DNA from: Desulfosporosinus sp.
GTDB taxonomy: Bacteria; Bacillota; Desulfitobacteriia; Desulfitobacteriales; Desulfitobacteriaceae
NCBI GenBank assembly: GCA_020692355.1
Contig: JAIMKP010000005.1
Coordinates: 1-64,000, forward strand
Length of the DNA stretch: 64,000 bases
Direction of reading: 5' to 3'
Part shown: positions 22,085 to 58,369 of the stretch, one piece after another
How positions within the stretch are numbered: position 1 is the stretch's first letter
How the letters are laid out: every line of letters starts with the position of its first letter
The notes under the pieces: model-generated
Seen by the model: the letters and a program-made list of their open reading frames with translations, nothing else
Told to the model about the DNA's origin: nothing
Databases searched by the model: none
Made by a program: the position numbers and the translations under genes

Positions 22085-22182
22085 GGGGATGGATGGTGGC
22101 TGGTGCTGCCCCCGGACTTCAAATCCGCGTGTCGGGACGCAGAACGTTCCGAGGTGTGTTCGATTCGCACGCATCCCCGCCA
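22085..22182 (+). tRNA. selC: tRNA-Sec (UCA anticodon)
   Basis: The 98-base gene has a long acceptor arm (GGGGATG pairing CATCCCC) and an anticodon loop CTTCAAA giving UCA. It has a long variable arm, a T arm GTGTG / CGCAC around TTCGATT, and an encoded GCCA end. The length and UCA anticodon identify tRNA-Sec, the partner of SelB at 9076. A candidate -10 TAAACT lies at 22067. Confidence 0.93.
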
Positions 22183-51068: not shown

Positions 51069-51460
51069 AGTCGCGGGATTCAGAAGAACCCCAAAATCCC
51101 AGCCGCTTCATTGATTCCTGTCTCATCGTCCTCAGCCCCCGTTGCGGGATAGGTCTTACAAAGACTCAACCAGGCTATCCCCGCAGTTCCTGCGGTTCAT
51201 CTTGATCGATAAGGTCAGGGGACACACCTCCTCATTAAGAAAACTCTCGAGTGGCTCGGAGGAATGTCCCCATTGGACACTGCCAATATCCGCAGGCCCT
51301 CATGGAGAATATTGATGGCCGCGTTCTCATCGCGGTCGTGGATTGTTCGGCATACCGGACATTGAATAGTTCTGGTGGATAGTATTTTCAAAACCCCATC
51401 GATTCTAAGTATATCTTCTTTGGTAGTCATCTTTTCTCTAATCGTATAGAGAATGGCCAA
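51060..51460 (-). pseudogene. IS200/IS605-type tnpB (OrfB) 3' remnant with right end
   Basis: On the minus strand the frame from 51460 includes CPVCRTIHDRDENAAINILH then EGLRIL, the C-terminal zinc ribbon and last catalytic Asp of TnpB. Shifted frames continue with DDETGINEAAGILGFF near 51075-51130, again typical of the TnpB tail. The first two-thirds of the gene are missing. The element ends at CCCGCGACTTCAGTCG (about 51060-51075), half of a terminal hairpin, at the nagA stop. The right-end region would also have been the guide-RNA part. Confidence 0.8.
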
Positions 51461-51593
51461 AATATCTTTTGGTTGATCCTCTAAGAGCTTATCAGGTTTT
51501 ATTTTATAAACACTTTATTTTTCGATCGTCCACATGATATAATCTCCATGTGTTTCAGTGATAAATGAAGAGACTGAAGGAGGGGATGTTTGA
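51461..51593 (+). promoter_or_regulatory. promoter region of the SCIFF peptide gene
   Basis: The AT-rich spacer holds a perfect TATAAT at about 51537. The -35 is poorly conserved. AAGGAGGGG at 51577-51585 is the ribosome binding site for the SCIFF start. Confidence 0.5.
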
Positions 51594-51743
51594 ATGGCTA
51601 ATCATATGAGTCACATTCAAACTGTTGTAAAGATGAACTTAAGCGCGACCCTGAAGACCGGAGGATGCGGCAACTGCCAAACGTCTTGCCAATCGGCTTG
51701 CAAGACGTCGTGCACGGTGGGGAATCAAGTTTGCGTGAAATAG
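51594..51743 (+). CDS. SCIFF six-cysteine ribosomal peptide
   Basis: This 49-residue RiPP precursor, too short for most gene finders, reads MANHMSHIQTVVKMNLSATL then KTGGCGNCQTSCQSACKTSC and TVGNQVCVK. Six Cys lie at 25, 28, 32, 36, 40 and 47, the SCIFF (six cysteines in forty-five) pattern nearly universal in Clostridia. Thioether crosslinks are installed by the radical SAM enzyme encoded next. AAGGAGGGG precedes the ATG. The mature role is not established. Confidence 0.95.
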   Translation: MANHMSHIQTVVKMNLSATLKTGGCGNCQTSCQSACKTSCTVGNQVCVK

Positions 51744-51793
51744 CCCAGACATATTCCCAAAACATTGGAGCCATGTTTTTGAACATAGGATTC

Positions 51794-51820
51794 AGAACCC
51801 ACCCTTTCGGGATGGGTTCT
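51794..51820 (+). terminator. attenuating hairpin between SCIFF gene and maturase gene
   Basis: AGAACCCA / TGGGTTCT extended by CCC / GGG with a bulge has loop TTTC and is followed by ATTTCTGTT. It probably limits read-through, so that peptide exceeds enzyme. Confidence 0.6.
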
Positions 51821-51865
51821 ATTTCTGTTGGCGTTGGCAGCGCTGTGATGAAAGAGAGGATTTGC

Positions 51866-53338
51866 ATGTTGAACTTAAATGGATATAATTTACAAAAGAA
51901 CATTCATGTTTTTCAACAGGGGCAACAATTCATCGCCTATGATGTAAACTCGGGCTCTTTACATCGTTTGGATGAGGCTGCGTATAGGGTCATTAAGGCA
52001 CTATTGAAGATTGAGAAGCGCGATCAAGAATTTACACCGGAGGTCTTGAATAAGACTCTGAGCCCAAGCCTTCTCCCATCTGAGGTAGAAGATATTTTAA
52101 GAGAATTAGAGAGTTTGCAAAAGGAGGGAACCCTTCTTTCCCCGGAAGCGGAAGAAAGGGGCCCGATTTATCCTTCGAAGCCTCTGGTCAAAGCGATTTG
52201 CCTGCATGTCGCCCATGATTGCAACCTTCGCTGTGAGTATTGTTTTGCCGGAACCGGAGCTTTTGGGGGAAACCGCGAGCTGATGGATTTTGAGACGGGG
52301 AAACGGGGGATTGATTTTGTCCTCGAAGCCTCTGGACACCGTTCGCACTGTGAGGTGGACTTTTTTGGGGGCGAACCGCTTTTGAACTTCGGCGTGGTGA
52401 AGGAATTGGTTCGCTACGGGAACAAGGCTGCCGCGAACAAGGGAAAGAGCGTGAAGTTTACGCTCACGACGAATGCAGTACTCCTGAGTGATGAAGTTCA
52501 GAGTTTTCTGGAGGAAGAAGACATTAGTGTGGTCTTAAGCTTGGATGGGCGGCCGGAAGTGCATGACCGCATGCGCCCTTATGCTAACGGGCGGGGAAGT
52601 TATGACAAAGTTGTCCCGTCAATCCAAAAGTTTGTACAAAAGCGCCCGGACAGTTCTCCTTATGCGATAGGCACGTATTACTATGTGCGAGGCACCTATA
52701 CGCATTTCAATTTGGATTTTGACCAGGATGTCATTCATATGCTTGATTTGGGAATTAGGCAAATTTCCTTAGAACCGGTCGTGGCCTCACCGGGGGAGCC
52801 CTACGCTTTCCAACCGGAAGACGTGGAGGTGATCAAGGAGACTTATGATCGTCTCGGGGAGGAGATAGCCAGGCGAAGGGCCGAAGGTGAGGAATTTAGC
52901 TTTTTTCATTTCAACACCGCTTTTGAACAGGGTCCCTGCCTTCCGAAGCGCCTTTCGGGTTGTGGGGCAGGGCATGAATATGTAGCTATTTCCCCAGAAG
53001 GGGATCTCTACCCTTGCCATCAGTTTGTGGGGCAAGAAAAATACAAGCTGGGTTCTCTCTACGCGGCGGATCCTCTGGCTTTGGAGCCTAGTTTAGTCGA
53101 GGCTTTTCGTTCAGCCCATGTTTATGCGAAGCCCGCCTGTCGGGAATGTTGGGCGCGTTTTTCCTGCAGCGGTGGCTGCCATGCAGCGAATTCAGCGGCG
53201 ACCGGAACGTTGACGGACGTATACCAGCTTGGGTGTGAGTTTCAAAAGAAACGCTTGGAAGTGGCCTTTTATCTTAAAATAAAAGAAATTGAGCCAGGAA
53301 AAGTGACAACTGAGGGCGAATTTCTCACTAACTGTTAA
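51866..53338 (+). CDS. radical SAM/SPASM thioether maturase of SCIFF
   Basis: The 490-residue protein has an N-terminal peptide-binding region (IHVFQQGQQFIAYDVNSGSL HRLDEAAYRVI split here). The radical SAM motif CNLRCEYC has its cysteines at 119, 123 and 126. The C-terminal SPASM domain (CGAGHEYVAISPEGDLYPCH, then CRECWARFSCSGGCH) would hold auxiliary Fe-S clusters. This is the scifRSM-type maturase, which forms Cys S-to-C-alpha bonds in SCIFF. ATG at 51866 follows GAGAGGA; a longer in-frame reading crosses the SCIFF gene and hairpin and is unlikely. Confidence 0.92.
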   Translation: MLNLNGYNLQKNIHVFQQGQQFIAYDVNSGSLHRLDEAAYRVIKALLKIEKRDQEFTPEVLNKTLSPSLLPSEVEDILRELESLQKEGTLLSPEAEERGPIYPSKPLVKAICLHVAHDCNLRCEYCFAGTGAFGGNRELMDFETGKRGIDFVLEASGHRSHCEVDFFGGEPLLNFGVVKELVRYGNKAAANKGKSVKFTLTTNAVLLSDEVQSFLEEEDISVVLSLDGRPEVHDRMRPYANGRGSYDKVVPSIQKFVQKRPDSSPYAIGTYYYVRGTYTHFNLDFDQDVIHMLDLGIRQISLEPVVASPGEPYAFQPEDVEVIKETYDRLGEEIARRRAEGEEFSFFHFNTAFEQGPCLPKRLSGCGAGHEYVAISPEGDLYPCHQFVGQEKYKLGSLYAADPLALEPSLVEAFRSAHVYAKPACRECWARFSCSGGCHAANSAATGTLTDVYQLGCEFQKKRLEVAFYLKIKEIEPGKVTTEGEFLTNC

Positions 53339-53425
53339 ATTTCTCGGGTTGGTTTAGTGCACATTGCCGTTAATGTTATTGAGTAAGAGCATAGCCGCGT
53401 TGTTTTAACGAGAGGAGCTTGTGCT

Positions 53426-55402
53426 GTGGTGGAAGTCCGTTCCGCATGTCCGCTGAATTGCCCAGACAGTTGCGCTTTTTGGGCTGAACCCACGGAACAA
53501 GGCTTGAAAGTGCGCGGGGATAAAGAAAATCGAATCACGCGGGGATTTATCTGTGAAAAGGGCCGGGCCTTAGCGAATCAGGCTTCGTCCCCAGAGCGTC
53601 TGTACTTTCCGTTGCTCCGGGAAGGACAGACATTTAAGCGCATTCGCTGGGATGAGGCTTATGCCCGCTTCGCTCAGGAAATCCGCCAAACACTGGCTGA
53701 GGTTGGGCCTTGGGGGATCCTGCATCATTATGATTATGGGCACAATGGAGTGCTGCGTGCGTTGGATCGCCGGTTTTTCCAAGCCTTAGGCGGAGTGACA
53801 GAACCTCGGGGAAGCATGTGCTGGGGTGCCGGCTACAGGGCCCAGGAACTGGATTTTGGTGGGGTGTACAGCAGTTCTTGGACGGATCTGCCTCATGCGA
53901 AAACCATCGTTTTGTGGGGTAAAGATCCGGCGGTTACCCATCCTCATCTGATGCCGTTTCTCCTGGAGGCCAAAGCAAAGGGCGCCAGGCTGATTGCCAT
54001 CAATCCGCTAAAAGTCAAAAGTGCGAAGTTTGTGGACGAATACCTGCAGGTTCGCCCCGGGACGGATGGGGCTTTGGCCTTGGGGCTTGCCCATATCCTC
54101 TTGAGCGAGGGATGGCTGGATCTGCCGTTCGTCCGGGAGCGTGTTTTAGGGCTGGAGGATTATGCGCAGCGGGTCAAAGCCTACCCACCTGAGAGGACGG
54201 CAGATATTACAGGGGTTGCTCCGGCGGCACTGCGGGCCTTGGCGCGGACGCTCGGCCATGAAAAGCCGGTTTCGATCCTCTTGGGCTATGGGTTGCAGCG
54301 CTACACGAATGGCGGGAATACGGTGAGGGCTATTGACGCTCTGGCTGCCGTCAGCGGGAACGTGGGACGGTCGGGTGCTGGGGTTCATTATGCACATCAA
54401 TACCACAGGGGCCGTTTTAACAGCCTCCTCCTGCCGACGGAGGGCTTGCATCCCCGTAGCTTTCCCCATGCCCAGATCGCTGAGAACATTCTACGGGCGG
54501 ATCCGCCCGTGCAACTTGCGGTTGTGACCCGTTCTAACCCTCTGGTGCAGCAGCCGGATTCCTATCTTTGGCGCGAGGCTTGGCAAAGCATGCGTTTTAA
54601 GGTGGTTCTGGATTGGGTGATGACGGAAACTGCGCGTCAGGCGGATTTAATCCTCCCGATCGCCTCCGTCTTTGAAGATGAAGATATCATCGCGACATCC
54701 TGGAGTCCTTTGATTCAATATGCGCAGAAGGTCATGGATCCCCCAGGAGAAGCTAAACCGGAATGGGAGATTTTCACTGAATGTGCCAAACGTCTAGGCT
54801 TGGATTCGCATTTTCCGTACTCAGGCAGGGAGTGGCTGGAATACGCTATAGAGCCGCTCGCCGCAGAAGGGACAACCCTAGAGCGGTTGCAAGAGGGGCC
54901 TGTTTGGGCACCTTATATTCCGGAGGTGGCCTGGGCGGATGGGCAGTTTCTTACTCCTTCGGGCAAGATTGAGCTAAGTTCTGCATTGGCCGCTAAGGAA
55001 TTAGGGGATGGGGTTGCGGATTATGTTCCCCTTCAAAGTGAGTCCGAGCTATCCGTTTTTCCCTATCTTCTCCTGACCCCCCATTTAGGGAAAGCACTTC
55101 ATTCCCAGTTTCAGGAGGATGAGGGGTTTAAGGCCTTTCTTCATCCGCAAACGGCGGCCAAGCACTATCTCTGGCAGGGGGATCGGGTTCTGGTCGAGAC
55201 CGCCTGGGGGAAACTCACTGCCGTGGTCCAGGTATCGGAAGCAATATATCCGGAAGCCGTGATGATCCCTGAGGGGAATACCGAGCAAGGGCTGGGTGTA
55301 AACCGTCTTATCCCGGGGCGTCTGTCTGATCTGGGAGAAAGTACAGCCTACTATGATGTGCGCTGTGCCCTGCGTAAGCCCGGCATGGTCGGAGGCAAGT
55401 GA
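53426..55402 (+). CDS. molybdopterin oxidoreductase of the DMSO reductase/formate dehydrogenase family
   Basis: The 658-residue protein has an N-terminal [4Fe-4S] site CPLNCPDSC (Cys8, 12, 16) and Cys43 in GFICEKGRA. The presumed Mo ligand is Cys132 in GSMCWGAGYRA, so no selenocysteine is needed. Molybdopterin-binding segments include LWGKDPAVTHPHLMPF, AVSGNVGRSGAGVHY, and the C-terminal domain LLLTPHLGKALHSQF. There is no Tat signal, so it is cytoplasmic. The substrate is unknown and no electron-transfer subunit is adjacent. Start GTG 53426 follows AGAGGAG. Its TGA stop lies in the first bases of a family B repeat. Confidence 0.85.
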   Translation: MVEVRSACPLNCPDSCAFWAEPTEQGLKVRGDKENRITRGFICEKGRALANQASSPERLYFPLLREGQTFKRIRWDEAYARFAQEIRQTLAEVGPWGILHHYDYGHNGVLRALDRRFFQALGGVTEPRGSMCWGAGYRAQELDFGGVYSSSWTDLPHAKTIVLWGKDPAVTHPHLMPFLLEAKAKGARLIAINPLKVKSAKFVDEYLQVRPGTDGALALGLAHILLSEGWLDLPFVRERVLGLEDYAQRVKAYPPERTADITGVAPAALRALARTLGHEKPVSILLGYGLQRYTNGGNTVRAIDALAAVSGNVGRSGAGVHYAHQYHRGRFNSLLLPTEGLHPRSFPHAQIAENILRADPPVQLAVVTRSNPLVQQPDSYLWREAWQSMRFKVVLDWVMTETARQADLILPIASVFEDEDIIATSWSPLIQYAQKVMDPPGEAKPEWEIFTECAKRLGLDSHFPYSGREWLEYAIEPLAAEGTTLERLQEGPVWAPYIPEVAWADGQFLTPSGKIELSSALAAKELGDGVADYVPLQSESELSVFPYLLLTPHLGKALHSQFQEDEGFKAFLHPQTAAKHYLWQGDRVLVETAWGKLTAVVQVSEAIYPEAVMIPEGNTEQGLGVNRLIPGRLSDLGESTAYYDVRCALRKPGMVGGK

Positions 55403-55503
55403 ACTCGTTCAACTAAAGTTGAACATCGAGACTTCGGTGGGGGAGTCTACCCCCACCGAAGCAAAGTACGAGGTACCACTCCCACTTGTAGAAGTGGGAG
55501 TCT
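55399..55503 (+). repeat. repeat family B, short copy
   Basis: GTGAACTCGTTCAAC begins it, overlapping the preceding gene's stop. Hairpin TTCAAC / GTTGAA follows, then a perfect long hairpin CTTCGGTGGGGG / CCCCCACCGAAG, and end hairpin ACTCCCACTT / AAGTGGGAGT. The first stem differs from the 35161 copy by a compensated base pair. Confidence 0.7.
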
Positions 55504-55536
55504 CACGATTGGATGAGGAGCGCCTCCTGATCCCGT

Positions 55537-55631
55537 CAGAAAGTAATCTGTGGGGGATAAGAAAACTAGCGGTGCTGCCTTCGCCCGATCGTCCCACCGG
55601 GACGATCGCAGCACCAGCCGAGTTTTCTTTA
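55537..55631 (+). repeat. repeat family A, copy 4
   Basis: CAGAAAGTAATCTG begins it and GAGTTTTCTTTA ends it. AAAACT / AGTTTT and GGTGCTG / CAGCACC arms enclose the palindrome CGATCGTCCC / GGGACGATCG. It lies just upstream of the TPR gene. Confidence 0.7.
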
Positions 55632-55653
55632 AAAATTCTAAGGGGGGAATCTA

Positions 55654-56283
55654 ATGAAACGTAAAACTCAACGCATAGCAGCCATTGTCATCGCAGTCTT
55701 AGTCAGCTTCAGTATGATCGGTACAGCGGCTTTCGGCTATTTCTATGGCAACTTTACCCCATCCTCCGCCAACCCGCCTTCGGCACCAACGCTCAGTGCA
55801 GGGGAACAGTTCAAACTTCAAAAAAGCCAAGTGCAGGCTCTAGAGGCCCAGGTGAAAGCAAATCCGGAGGATGCGGCCCTACAGCTTAATCTTGCCAATG
55901 CTTATTTTGATTTGGCGATCTCGGCACAGGGGACTGCTCCAGAGGAAATCAGCACCGATTTTGGCAAAGCCATCGCTGGGTATCAGATCGTCCTAAAGAC
56001 CAAGAAAGACATTGAGGTGTTAGTGGATATGGCCACGGCAGCGTTTTATGCAGGCCAGGATGATTTGGCCGAAAAAAGTTTCCAACAGGCCCTGGCCGAA
56101 CAGCCAAAATTCTTTAATACGCTTTATAATTATGGTGTGTTTCTCGCTCAGGCGAAGAAGGACAATGCGGGGGCCATTCGCCTCTGGCAACAGGCCTTGG
56201 CCGCCGAGCCCTCGAATCCGCGGGCTACTGATCTGAAGGCGCTCATCCAACAGGCACAACAAGCTGCAAAACCCTCCCCCTGA
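55654..56283 (+). CDS. membrane-anchored tetratricopeptide-repeat protein
   Basis: The 209-residue protein has an N-terminal membrane anchor or signal (residues 8-30, IAAIVIAVLVSFSMIGTAAF) and a Pro/Ser linker. A helical segment and three TPR-like repeats follow (ALQLNLANAYFDLAI, VLVDMATAAFYAGQDDLAEK, TLYNYGVFLAQAKKDNAGAI). Its role is probably protein-protein scaffolding outside the membrane; no partner is evident. AAGGGGGGAATCTA precedes the ATG. Confidence 0.8.
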   Translation: MKRKTQRIAAIVIAVLVSFSMIGTAAFGYFYGNFTPSSANPPSAPTLSAGEQFKLQKSQVQALEAQVKANPEDAALQLNLANAYFDLAISAQGTAPEEISTDFGKAIAGYQIVLKTKKDIEVLVDMATAAFYAGQDDLAEKSFQQALAEQPKFFNTLYNYGVFLAQAKKDNAGAIRLWQQALAAEPSNPRATDLKALIQQAQQAAKPSP

Positions 56284-56393
56284 ATCAAGTTACATAAATA
56301 CTCGGTGAATGTTAACAAGATGTTCACAAAATCATCACGCTTAGAATACGAACGCTAGGTATAATCAATTTGAAGCAAGAAGGTGACAACATC

Positions 56394-57203
56394 TTGCATT
56401 TTGCAACAATTGCAAGTGGAAGTTCTGGGAATGCTATTCTCGTTGGGGAGGGAGAAAAGAGTTTTTTAATTGATTGTGGTATTAGTGCCAAACGGCTGAT
56501 GGAAAACCTGAACTTAATTCAGGTGCCCCCAAGCCAAATTAAAGGGATCTTGGTTACCCATGAACATGTGGACCACATTAAAGGCATTGGAGTGCTCGCC
56601 CGTAAATTAAAAATCCCGATCCTAGCAACCCCAGGTCTTTGGGAAGAGATGGCTTCTCTCGTGGGAAAGATTGAAGCAGAGCAGCGCATTGAGATTGCAT
56701 CGGAGGTTGTGCTGGCAGGACTCCATGTCAAATTGTTTTCCACATCCCACGATAGTCGGGAAAGCTATGGCATGCGAATTGAACGTGAAGTCCTGGGGCA
56801 AAGGTTGCTTTCCTTAGGGATCGCTACAGATACCGGGATGATTACGGAGGAGATGCACCAGAACCTAAAAGGGTGTGATGCTCTGATCGTGGAAGCGAAC
56901 CATGACAAGGATCGCCTGTGGCAGGGGAGGTATCCTTGGCACTTGAAAAAGCGGATCAGTGGGAAATACGGACACTTAGAGAATAGCCAACTTGCGGAAG
57001 GGTTGGTAGAATGGGTGAAAGGAAACACCCAGAAAGTTGTTCTGGCTCACCTGAGCGAGGAAAACAACACCCCTGAAACAGCGTTAGCCACAGTCCTCAA
57101 CATTCTCCGGCACTCTGTAGTTTCTAAAGAAAATCCAGAACTGCGTTTGCGTGTCGCGCCCCGGCATATTCCGCATGAACTGATTTATTTGCGTGAACAC
57201 TAA
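56394..57203 (+). CDS. metallo-beta-lactamase fold hydrolase, YycJ/WalJ type
   Basis: The 269-residue protein starts LHFATIASGSSGNAILVGEG, has the metal motif HEHVDH at residues 56-61 and FSTSHDSRESYGM further on. IVEANHDKDRLWQGRYPWHL and the late VVLAHLSEENNTPE also match. YycJ has been proposed as an exonuclease in DNA repair and cell-wall linked processes. The TTG at 56394 follows AGAAGGTGA; an upstream TTG at 56370 is possible. It lies 20 bases before the HtrA gene, as in the yycJ-htrA order, but the walRK genes are absent. Confidence 0.88.
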   Translation: MHFATIASGSSGNAILVGEGEKSFLIDCGISAKRLMENLNLIQVPPSQIKGILVTHEHVDHIKGIGVLARKLKIPILATPGLWEEMASLVGKIEAEQRIEIASEVVLAGLHVKLFSTSHDSRESYGMRIEREVLGQRLLSLGIATDTGMITEEMHQNLKGCDALIVEANHDKDRLWQGRYPWHLKKRISGKYGHLENSQLAEGLVEWVKGNTQKVVLAHLSEENNTPETALATVLNILRHSVVSKENPELRLRVAPRHIPHELIYLREH

Positions 57204-57223
57204 ATGAGGAGGTATTTAAAGGT

Positions 57224-58369
57224 ATGAGCTATTATAATGAACCCAATTATCCTTCCCCCAAACGGCCACGCTTTTTTTCAACCGTCGCCGTTGCGTTGGT
57301 AAGCGCTTTGCTCGGCGGAATTCTGGCGATTGGCGTAAGTCCCTCCCTTTATGGCAACCGGCAGCCTGGAGTCAACCCAGTCACATTGACCCAGGGGGCC
57401 CCACCGCCTGTGAATGTGTCAGGACAGACTGATTTTCCGGTGGTTGAAATTGCCAAAAAGGTTGGACCCGCAGTGGTGGGAATTGCAAATTTCCAAATAA
57501 GCAGCGGGCTCTTAGGCGGGCGGGGTTTGAGTGAAGTCGGAAGTGGCTCTGGCTTTGTGATTGATGCTCAAAACGGTTACATTTTGACGAACTACCATGT
57601 CATTGATCAGGCACAAAAACTAGTCGTCAGCCTGGCTGACGGACGGAATCTTGAGGCCAAACCGGTTGGCGGGGATTCCCGGACTGACTTAGCCGTTATT
57701 AAGATCAGTGATACGAAGAATCTTACAGCCGTCCAATTTGGGGATTCAACCAAACTACAGGTAGGTGAACCTGTTGTGGCTATTGGGAATCCAGGGGGCC
57801 AGGAATTTGCTCGCTCCGTAACAACCGGGGTAGTTTCTGCCACGAATCGGATCCTTAATCTTCAGGGAGAATCCAGCTTTAACCTGATTCAGACCGATGC
57901 TGCGATTAACCCAGGAAACAGCGGGGGTCCACTCGTGAATTACGGCGGGCAGGTGATTGGCATCAATTCAGCAAAGAATCAAGAACCTGGTTTCGAAGGG
58001 ATGGGTTTTGCGATTCCGATCTCGGATGCCTTGCCGACGATTCAGCAGTTGATTCAGAAAGGGTATGCGAGCCACCCCGCCCTTTTGGTCAGCATTGATT
58101 CTCGCTATAATGCGGAATACGCTGCCCAGCAGGGATGGCCAGAAGGTGCCTATATAGCTAAGGTAAGCCCAGGCGGGCCTGCTGACAAGGCGGGAATTCA
58201 GAACGGGGATATTATTAGCAAGGTGAACGGCACCCCTATTCGCAATTCCTCCGAGCTAACGCACGAATTGTTCAAATATAAGGCAGGGGATAAAGTCAGT
58301 GTCACGATCTTCCGTAATGGCAAGACGACAGATGTGCAGGTTGTTTTAACAGAATTGAAATCGAGCTGA
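57224..58369 (+). CDS. HtrA-type serine protease with PDZ domain
   Basis: The 381-residue protein has one N-terminal membrane anchor (residues 19-39). The trypsin-like domain has the triad His in LTNYHVID, Asp in TDLAVIKI and Ser in NPGNSGGPLV. A C-terminal PDZ domain includes GAYIAKVSPGGPADKAGIQN then GDIISKVNG. It degrades misfolded proteins at the outer membrane face. ATGAGGAGG precedes the ATG region. It is convergent with the RNase J gene. Confidence 0.93.
   Translation: MSYYNEPNYPSPKRPRFFSTVAVALVSALLGGILAIGVSPSLYGNRQPGVNPVTLTQGAPPPVNVSGQTDFPVVEIAKKVGPAVVGIANFQISSGLLGGRGLSEVGSGSGFVIDAQNGYILTNYHVIDQAQKLVVSLADGRNLEAKPVGGDSRTDLAVIKISDTKNLTAVQFGDSTKLQVGEPVVAIGNPGGQEFARSVTTGVVSATNRILNLQGESSFNLIQTDAAINPGNSGGPLVNYGGQVIGINSAKNQEPGFEGMGFAIPISDALPTIQQLIQKGYASHPALLVSIDSRYNAEYAAQQGWPEGAYIAKVSPGGPADKAGIQNGDIISKVNGTPIRNSSELTHELFKYKAGDKVSVTIFRNGKTTDVQVVLTELKSS

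Follow-up and report, generated by a model that had tools for sequence, protein, structure and literature searches.

The gene for a SCIFF ranthipeptide precursor and that for its radical SAM maturase, which are neighbours on the forward strand of a 64,000-nucleotide stretch of a Desulfosporosinus genome (the window in what follows), probably constitute a single transcription unit with a leaky terminator between the two genes that would provide the peptide in excess over the enzyme; we place the probability of this reading at roughly 0.7. By comparison of sequences the hairpin between the genes is not a product of chance, and the layout, with a predicted hairpin separating SCIFF from the maturase, recurs in many relatives. 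The elements of the locus are:

51535-51543, forward strand: predicted extended -10 promoter TGATATAAT of the SCIFF transcript, of the form TGnTATAAT conserved in family f1, to which the window belongs
51577-51585, forward strand: SCIFF ribosome-binding site AAGGAGGGG, computed pairing -12.5 kcal/mol
51594-51743, forward strand: SCIFF ranthipeptide precursor, 49 residues, matching TIGR03973 and PF13165
51794-51820, forward strand: intercistronic hairpin of 11 pairs with one bulged A, dG -17.4 kcal/mol, z -4.9
51821-51829, forward strand: interrupted T-rich tail ATTTCTGTT
51854-51860, forward strand: maturase ribosome-binding site GAGAGGA, computed pairing -9.9 kcal/mol
51866-53338, forward strand: SCIFF maturase, radical SAM/SPASM, 490 residues, matching TIGR03974, PF04055 and PF13186
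53426-55402, forward strand: molybdopterin oxidoreductase (context only), matching PF00384, PF01568 and PF04879

The identity of both genes, as asserted in an earlier note on this DNA, is upheld by profile searches: 1) The 49-residue peptide with all six cysteines lies exactly where that note had placed it, scores 76.3 bits against TIGR03973 (cut-off 50) and 78.8 bits against PF13165 (cut-off 27), and is the one SCIFF match in the window's genome (G000, 101 contigs). Its cysteines are spaced CxxCx3Cx3Cx3Cx6C, a spacing found in 175 of 178 distinct SCIFF frames. 2) The maturase scores 561 bits against TIGR03974 (cut-off 425), exceeds the cut-offs of PF04055 (radical SAM) and PF13186 (SPASM), and carries the CxxxCxxC motif of radical SAM enzymes as CNLRCEYC in its translation. 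Its open frame extends upstream to 51665, and homology together with the ribosome-binding site places the start at the ATG at 51866. 3) The strong ribosome-binding site claimed for SCIFF was found as AAGGAGGGG, and it is stronger by computed pairing than that of the maturase not only in the window but in 111 of 129 loci (weaker in 17, equal in one), a comparison in which both starts were picked partly by this very site. Some SCIFF frames have lost cysteines, namely those of L052 (genome G010; C5 to S), L059 (G047; C2 to F and C4 to S) and L257 (G307; C5 to L), each with the maturase adjoining; these losses may reflect decay, an altered product or an assembly error, and G010 has no match to the f1 hairpin model described below. 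At L032 (G034) the maturase match falls into two pieces, perhaps owing to a frameshift in the draft assembly.

SCIFF was detected in 59 of the 61 genomes of the order, the window's own included, and in 313 of 398 genomes of at least 90% completeness sampled evenly across the phylum, so that the near-universality that had been ascribed to it holds within the order and less so in the phylum sample. In one of the two exceptions in the order (G002) the maturase and its adjoining hairpin are present and the contig ends there, and hence the unmatched SCIFF is probably just unassembled; in the other (G046) the maturase is present and SCIFF was not found. In two genomes of genus g14, G044 and G051, SCIFF and the maturase lie on separate contigs: in the former (L058) a terminator-like hairpin follows SCIFF and no maturase match was seen in the 4,982 bases behind it, and in the latter (L057) the contig ends 155 bases behind SCIFF, with no such hairpin found.

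The hairpin with a T-rich tail that the earlier note had drawn between peptide and maturase is present at the exact coordinates, and is both conserved and above chance. None of 200 shuffles is as stable as the segment 51794-51820, compared with 24 of 200 that fold as well as the entire SCIFF-maturase gap, which is not unusually structured as a whole (z -1.15). The T-tract behind the hairpin is interrupted, with a longest run of 3, and gives the window a terminator score of -10.6; since this is below zero the hairpin may terminate little here, and longer tracts occur in other lineages. A stock terminator scan of the window did not list this hairpin, probably because of its bulge. A covariance model (R1), built partly from the window's own hairpin, matched the window's genome at 51782-51833 and nowhere else at E <= 0.1.

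To compare loci we used a terminator score of the d'Aubenton-Carafa type, which combines stem energy per length with a weighted T-tail, and demands at least 3 T in 8 positions. The gaps from the SCIFF stop to the maturase start were taken from 129 of the 139 loci with a SCIFF frame, 123 of them being distinct. At a threshold of -20, the most lenient of four, 97 of the 123 distinct gaps score above the line as against 12 of 615 dinucleotide shuffles, and 50 score above 0 as against none of the 615. Maturase-coding stretches reach these levels in 2 and 1 of 123 cases, respectively, and stretches upstream of SCIFF in 7 and 2 of 123. In a sample of the phylum with one locus per family, 38 of 51 gaps exceed -20 (15 of 490 shuffles) and 20 of 51 exceed 0 (1 of 490 shuffles). 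This sample comprises 56 loci chosen by hand from the best-scoring SCIFF rows, and families with divergent SCIFF are therefore under-represented in it; 51 of the 56 have a maturase downstream within the stretch and in five none was found, and two of the 51 gaps have zero length by start call, L250 perhaps being mis-called. The gaps that miss the -20 threshold number 26 of 123 and 13 of 51 in the two sets. Position was controlled within the same loci of the order, with identical gaps included: 47 of 57 SCIFF-maturase gaps score above -20 compared with 2 of 62 of the next gaps, that is 2/20 between maturase and the TPR gene, 0/23 between TPR and MBL-fold genes and 0/19 between MBL-fold and HtrA genes. 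Many gaps of the latter two kinds are short, and among those of at least 40 nt the respective counts are 2/18, 0/11 and 0/5. The loci are related to one another, and the gap counts are thus not independent.

Different clades use unrelated stems at this one position, which indicates that structure is kept there rather than sequence. The stem is GAACCC..GGGTTC in f1, GCAGCG..CGCTGC in 25 loci that belong mostly to Lachnospiraceae, and of a CCTTCCC..GGGAAGG-like form in Selenomonas. Since the 25 GCAGCG stems were chosen by their motif, six of their pairs are fixed by construction and four others vary; in this set 16 cells are changed on both sides yet paired, compared with 5.0 in shuffles (none of 500 had as many), a count inflated by the relatedness of the loci, and the 4 pairs with such double changes are within what shuffling yields (137 of 500 shuffles). 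The f1 stem is highly conserved, with two of its ten pairs changed on both sides. At E <= 0.1 a covariance model built on 33 f1 sequences finds matches in all f1 genomes save G010 (36 of 37), and in 35 of them its best match is the SCIFF locus, by construction or nearly so; in G002, whose sequence did not enter the model, the best match lies next to the maturase, at the edge of the contig. The order's remaining 24 genomes gave no match, with filters that lose weak ones, and further matches of the model either have poor E-values (0.0025 or worse) or are this hairpin read on the other strand. We considered whether the arms by themselves are specific to the locus and rejected this: AGAACCC..GGGTTCT turns up at other sites too, 0 to 7 times per genome and in 45 of 61 genomes, and among 10 genomes searched GCAGCG..CGCTGC occurs once in five and 2 to 11 times in the other five, with 0 to 7 occurrences of its reversed control.

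Transcription of the locus would start near 51550, behind the extended -10 element. The TGnTATAAT motif is present upstream of SCIFF in all 33 f1 loci examined, each with a score of at least 8, a level attained by 8% of shuffles; these 33 are the f1 set used throughout, from which L037 and L038 were dropped, their gap being the same as that of L035, as was L052 with its degenerate SCIFF and lack of an f1-type hairpin. At L046 the SCIFF promoter lies unusually far upstream, and a piece of the SCIFF-maturase gap is repeated upstream of SCIFF, as if a small mobile repeat had been inserted twice. Between nagA and the SCIFF promoter of the window lies a short frame on the reverse strand (51215-51460), apparently a transposon remnant, in which PF07282 is above cut-off and TnpB models are below, only the TnpB-like C-terminal end being matched.

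Consensus scans depict the window as having a promoter before SCIFF, a hairpin after it and no recognisable promoter for the maturase. In the reading that we favour, TGATATAAT would drive an RNA from which SCIFF is translated by way of its strong ribosome-binding site; RNA polymerase would then meet a stable hairpin followed by a poor, interrupted U-tract and often terminate, leaving an abundant transcript of about 275 nt with SCIFF as its sole coding region, and a fraction of polymerases would read through and allow the maturase to be translated from its weaker site. Partial read-through and the weaker maturase ribosome-binding site would together set the SCIFF peptide in molar excess over the maturase. 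Termination at the hairpin, the amount of read-through and selection on the stoichiometry are, like the transcription start, what we infer from the sequence. The weakness of the tract is a consistent feature of the family: the longest T-run behind the hairpin is 2-3 in all 33 f1 loci and reaches 4 in none, as compared with runs of at least 4 in 23 of 25 terminators behind S20 genes and 27 of 28 behind L31 genes of the same family (30 loci each, with only hairpins scoring above -30 counted). The GCAGCG set has weak tracts as well, with a T-run of at least 4 in 6 of 25 hairpins.

A stable hairpin without a good U-tract also fits a different role, in which a bicistronic RNA would be cut between the genes and the hairpin would serve as a 3' stabiliser of the SCIFF part; RNA-seq would show the same surplus of SCIFF over maturase RNA in either case. 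We consider this unlikely, in that T-rich tails stand behind the hairpin in many lineages (the score itself needs at least 3 T in 8) and most scored loci of f3, a sister family in the same order, have a long tract and then a promoter-like site, as termination predicts. Of the 17 f3 loci scored, 14 have a perfect TATAAT in the interval from hairpin to maturase; 13 of these score at least 8 (shuffles 4%), 12 have the TG extension and 13 of the 14 have a T-run of at least 5. The three loci without TATAAT all belong to genus g16. The f3 list, drawn up by hand, comprises the 14 loci and leaves out four of g16, of which L053-L055 passed the hairpin filter and scored below 7 and L056 failed it, as well as the two of g14 in which the maturase is not adjacent (L057 and L058). 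In most of f3 a strong stop thus seems to be followed by a promoter that belongs to the maturase, and as these loci are related the pattern may stem from a single evolutionary event.

This f3 arrangement, a full stop at the hairpin with the maturase transcribed from a separate promoter, is hard to extend to the window and we hold it to be quite improbable there. A promoter scan between hairpin and maturase, carried out at L012 only behind its second hairpin, found a score of at least 8 in none of the 33 f1 loci, and the window offers only 45 nt between hairpin and maturase start codon. The sole consensus match in the window (51861-51889) overlaps Tyr-Asn codons, and an RNA from it would start inside the maturase frame. 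The f3 variant, with its long T-tract and promoter-like site, is a natural comparison for f1. A general rule by which a weak tract goes with the lack of a promoter, which holds between f1 and most of f3, was discarded, as it fails in the phylum sample, where 26 of 42 hairpins have a T-run of at least 5 and 3 of 42 a promoter, against a shuffle rate of 3.8%.

The earlier note had called the hairpin an attenuator. What stands of this is a hairpin conserved in position that very likely lowers transcription of the maturase; the conditional switch is not supported, no alternative structure having been found in the alignment and the pairing described below. Such a switch, in which a ligand, a protein or translation of SCIFF would control read-through by way of a competing RNA structure, could draw on the conservation in most loci of the f1 hairpin, of AACATAGG upstream and of TTTCTRTTT downstream, and on strong covariance-model matches that occur only at the SCIFF-maturase locus. 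We regard it as very doubtful: RNAalifold on a 60-column alignment returned the hairpin alone without a competing structure; the stop-to-hairpin distance ranges from 20 to 109 nt in f1 (a value of 148 belongs to the second hairpin of L012), which argues against tight coupling to SCIFF translation; and the L31 terminators look conserved to an equal degree. The single candidate for a competing pairing, an outer stem of AACATAGGA with the T-rich tail, is attractive in single folds and failed a permutation test: pairing inside a sequence (mean -3.31) is no better than pairing across different sequences (mean -3.17; p 0.24).

Conservation of the hairpin sequence was also set aside as a sign of a special RNA, the L31 terminators of f1 being equally conserved by eye; S20 terminators share 7-mers at 0.108 as against 0.25 for the SCIFF hairpin. 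Downstream of the L31 gene (L175-L204) the terminator GCAGAGCGCAAGCTCTGC and its T-run are near-identical in most of the 30 loci, which is unexpectedly high conservation for a plain terminator.

If the leaky terminator is as widespread as the gaps suggest, it predicts an excess of peptide over maturase; this matters for deciding whether the peptide is a signal, resembles a cofactor or is produced in bulk. It would be a long shot that the RNA of some 275 nt is abundant and conserved in many Clostridia and that its read-through is regulated, switching maturase supply, and with it SCIFF modification, by cell state; were it so, the sequence conservation of the f1 hairpin and its flanks would mark a factor-binding site. 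SCIFFs are described in the reviews PMC8326336 and PMC8102284 as widespread in Clostridia, with beta or gamma thioether links. The statement that their function is unknown is partly dated: in the same reviews quorum sensing is listed as a role of SCIFF (PMC8326336; PMC8102284, citing Chen et al. 2020), and gene disruption in C. beijerinckii is stated to lower sporulation genes (PMC8102284, citing Chen et al. 2020).

In the order the maturase is usually followed by TPR (23/25 loci), MBL-fold (23/25) and HtrA (20/25) genes, counted where the downstream flank is 1.5 kb or longer (25 loci). These four form a conserved block, which in the window extends over 53338-58369 with the molybdoenzyme inserted behind the maturase. 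The latter had been put forward as a possible redox context for SCIFF; it stands behind the maturase in only 4 of the 25 loci (L041, L043, L044 and L055, in genera of two families) and hence is not a general partner. It is also found at L061 and L078, whose flanks are too short for the 25-locus count. Elsewhere in the window, 22085-22178 on the forward strand is a selenocysteine tRNA gene (Rfam RF01852, 66.8 bits), and the organism therefore probably makes selenoproteins.

In the nisin operons, a leaky terminator between nisA and nisB separates a small precursor gene from the gene of its modification enzyme; these operons differ from the SCIFF locus in their lanthipeptide chemistry and in their regulation by NisRK. 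Among SCIFF systems themselves, PMC5300114 reports that all 234 radical SAM genes located at most 500 bp from a SCIFF gene were assigned as SCIFF maturases by model. The window's pair, which satisfies the SCIFF and maturase models, resembles the pairs Tte1186a/Tte1186 of Caldanaerobacter and CteA/CteB of Clostridium thermocellum, described as SCIFF precursors and their maturases of the radical SAM kind (PMC8326336, PMC8172795). The accessible sections on these two systems mention no intergenic hairpin, and the word "terminator" occurs 0 times in the main text of PMC8172795. Similarly, among the matches listed in the literature searched, which was accessible in part and did not include Haft and Basu 2011 or Chen et al. 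2020, neither a terminator nor an attenuator is mentioned for SCIFF loci, which is a weak indication. The layout is real and widespread and, as far as we have seen in that literature, undescribed. A precedent for it is the streptolysin S cluster, which is transcribed from a single promoter and has a Rho-independent terminator behind sagA (as given in the available part of PMC4786598): there too the terminator follows the precursor gene, as it is predicted to do at SCIFF, with a precursor and enzymes that are unrelated.
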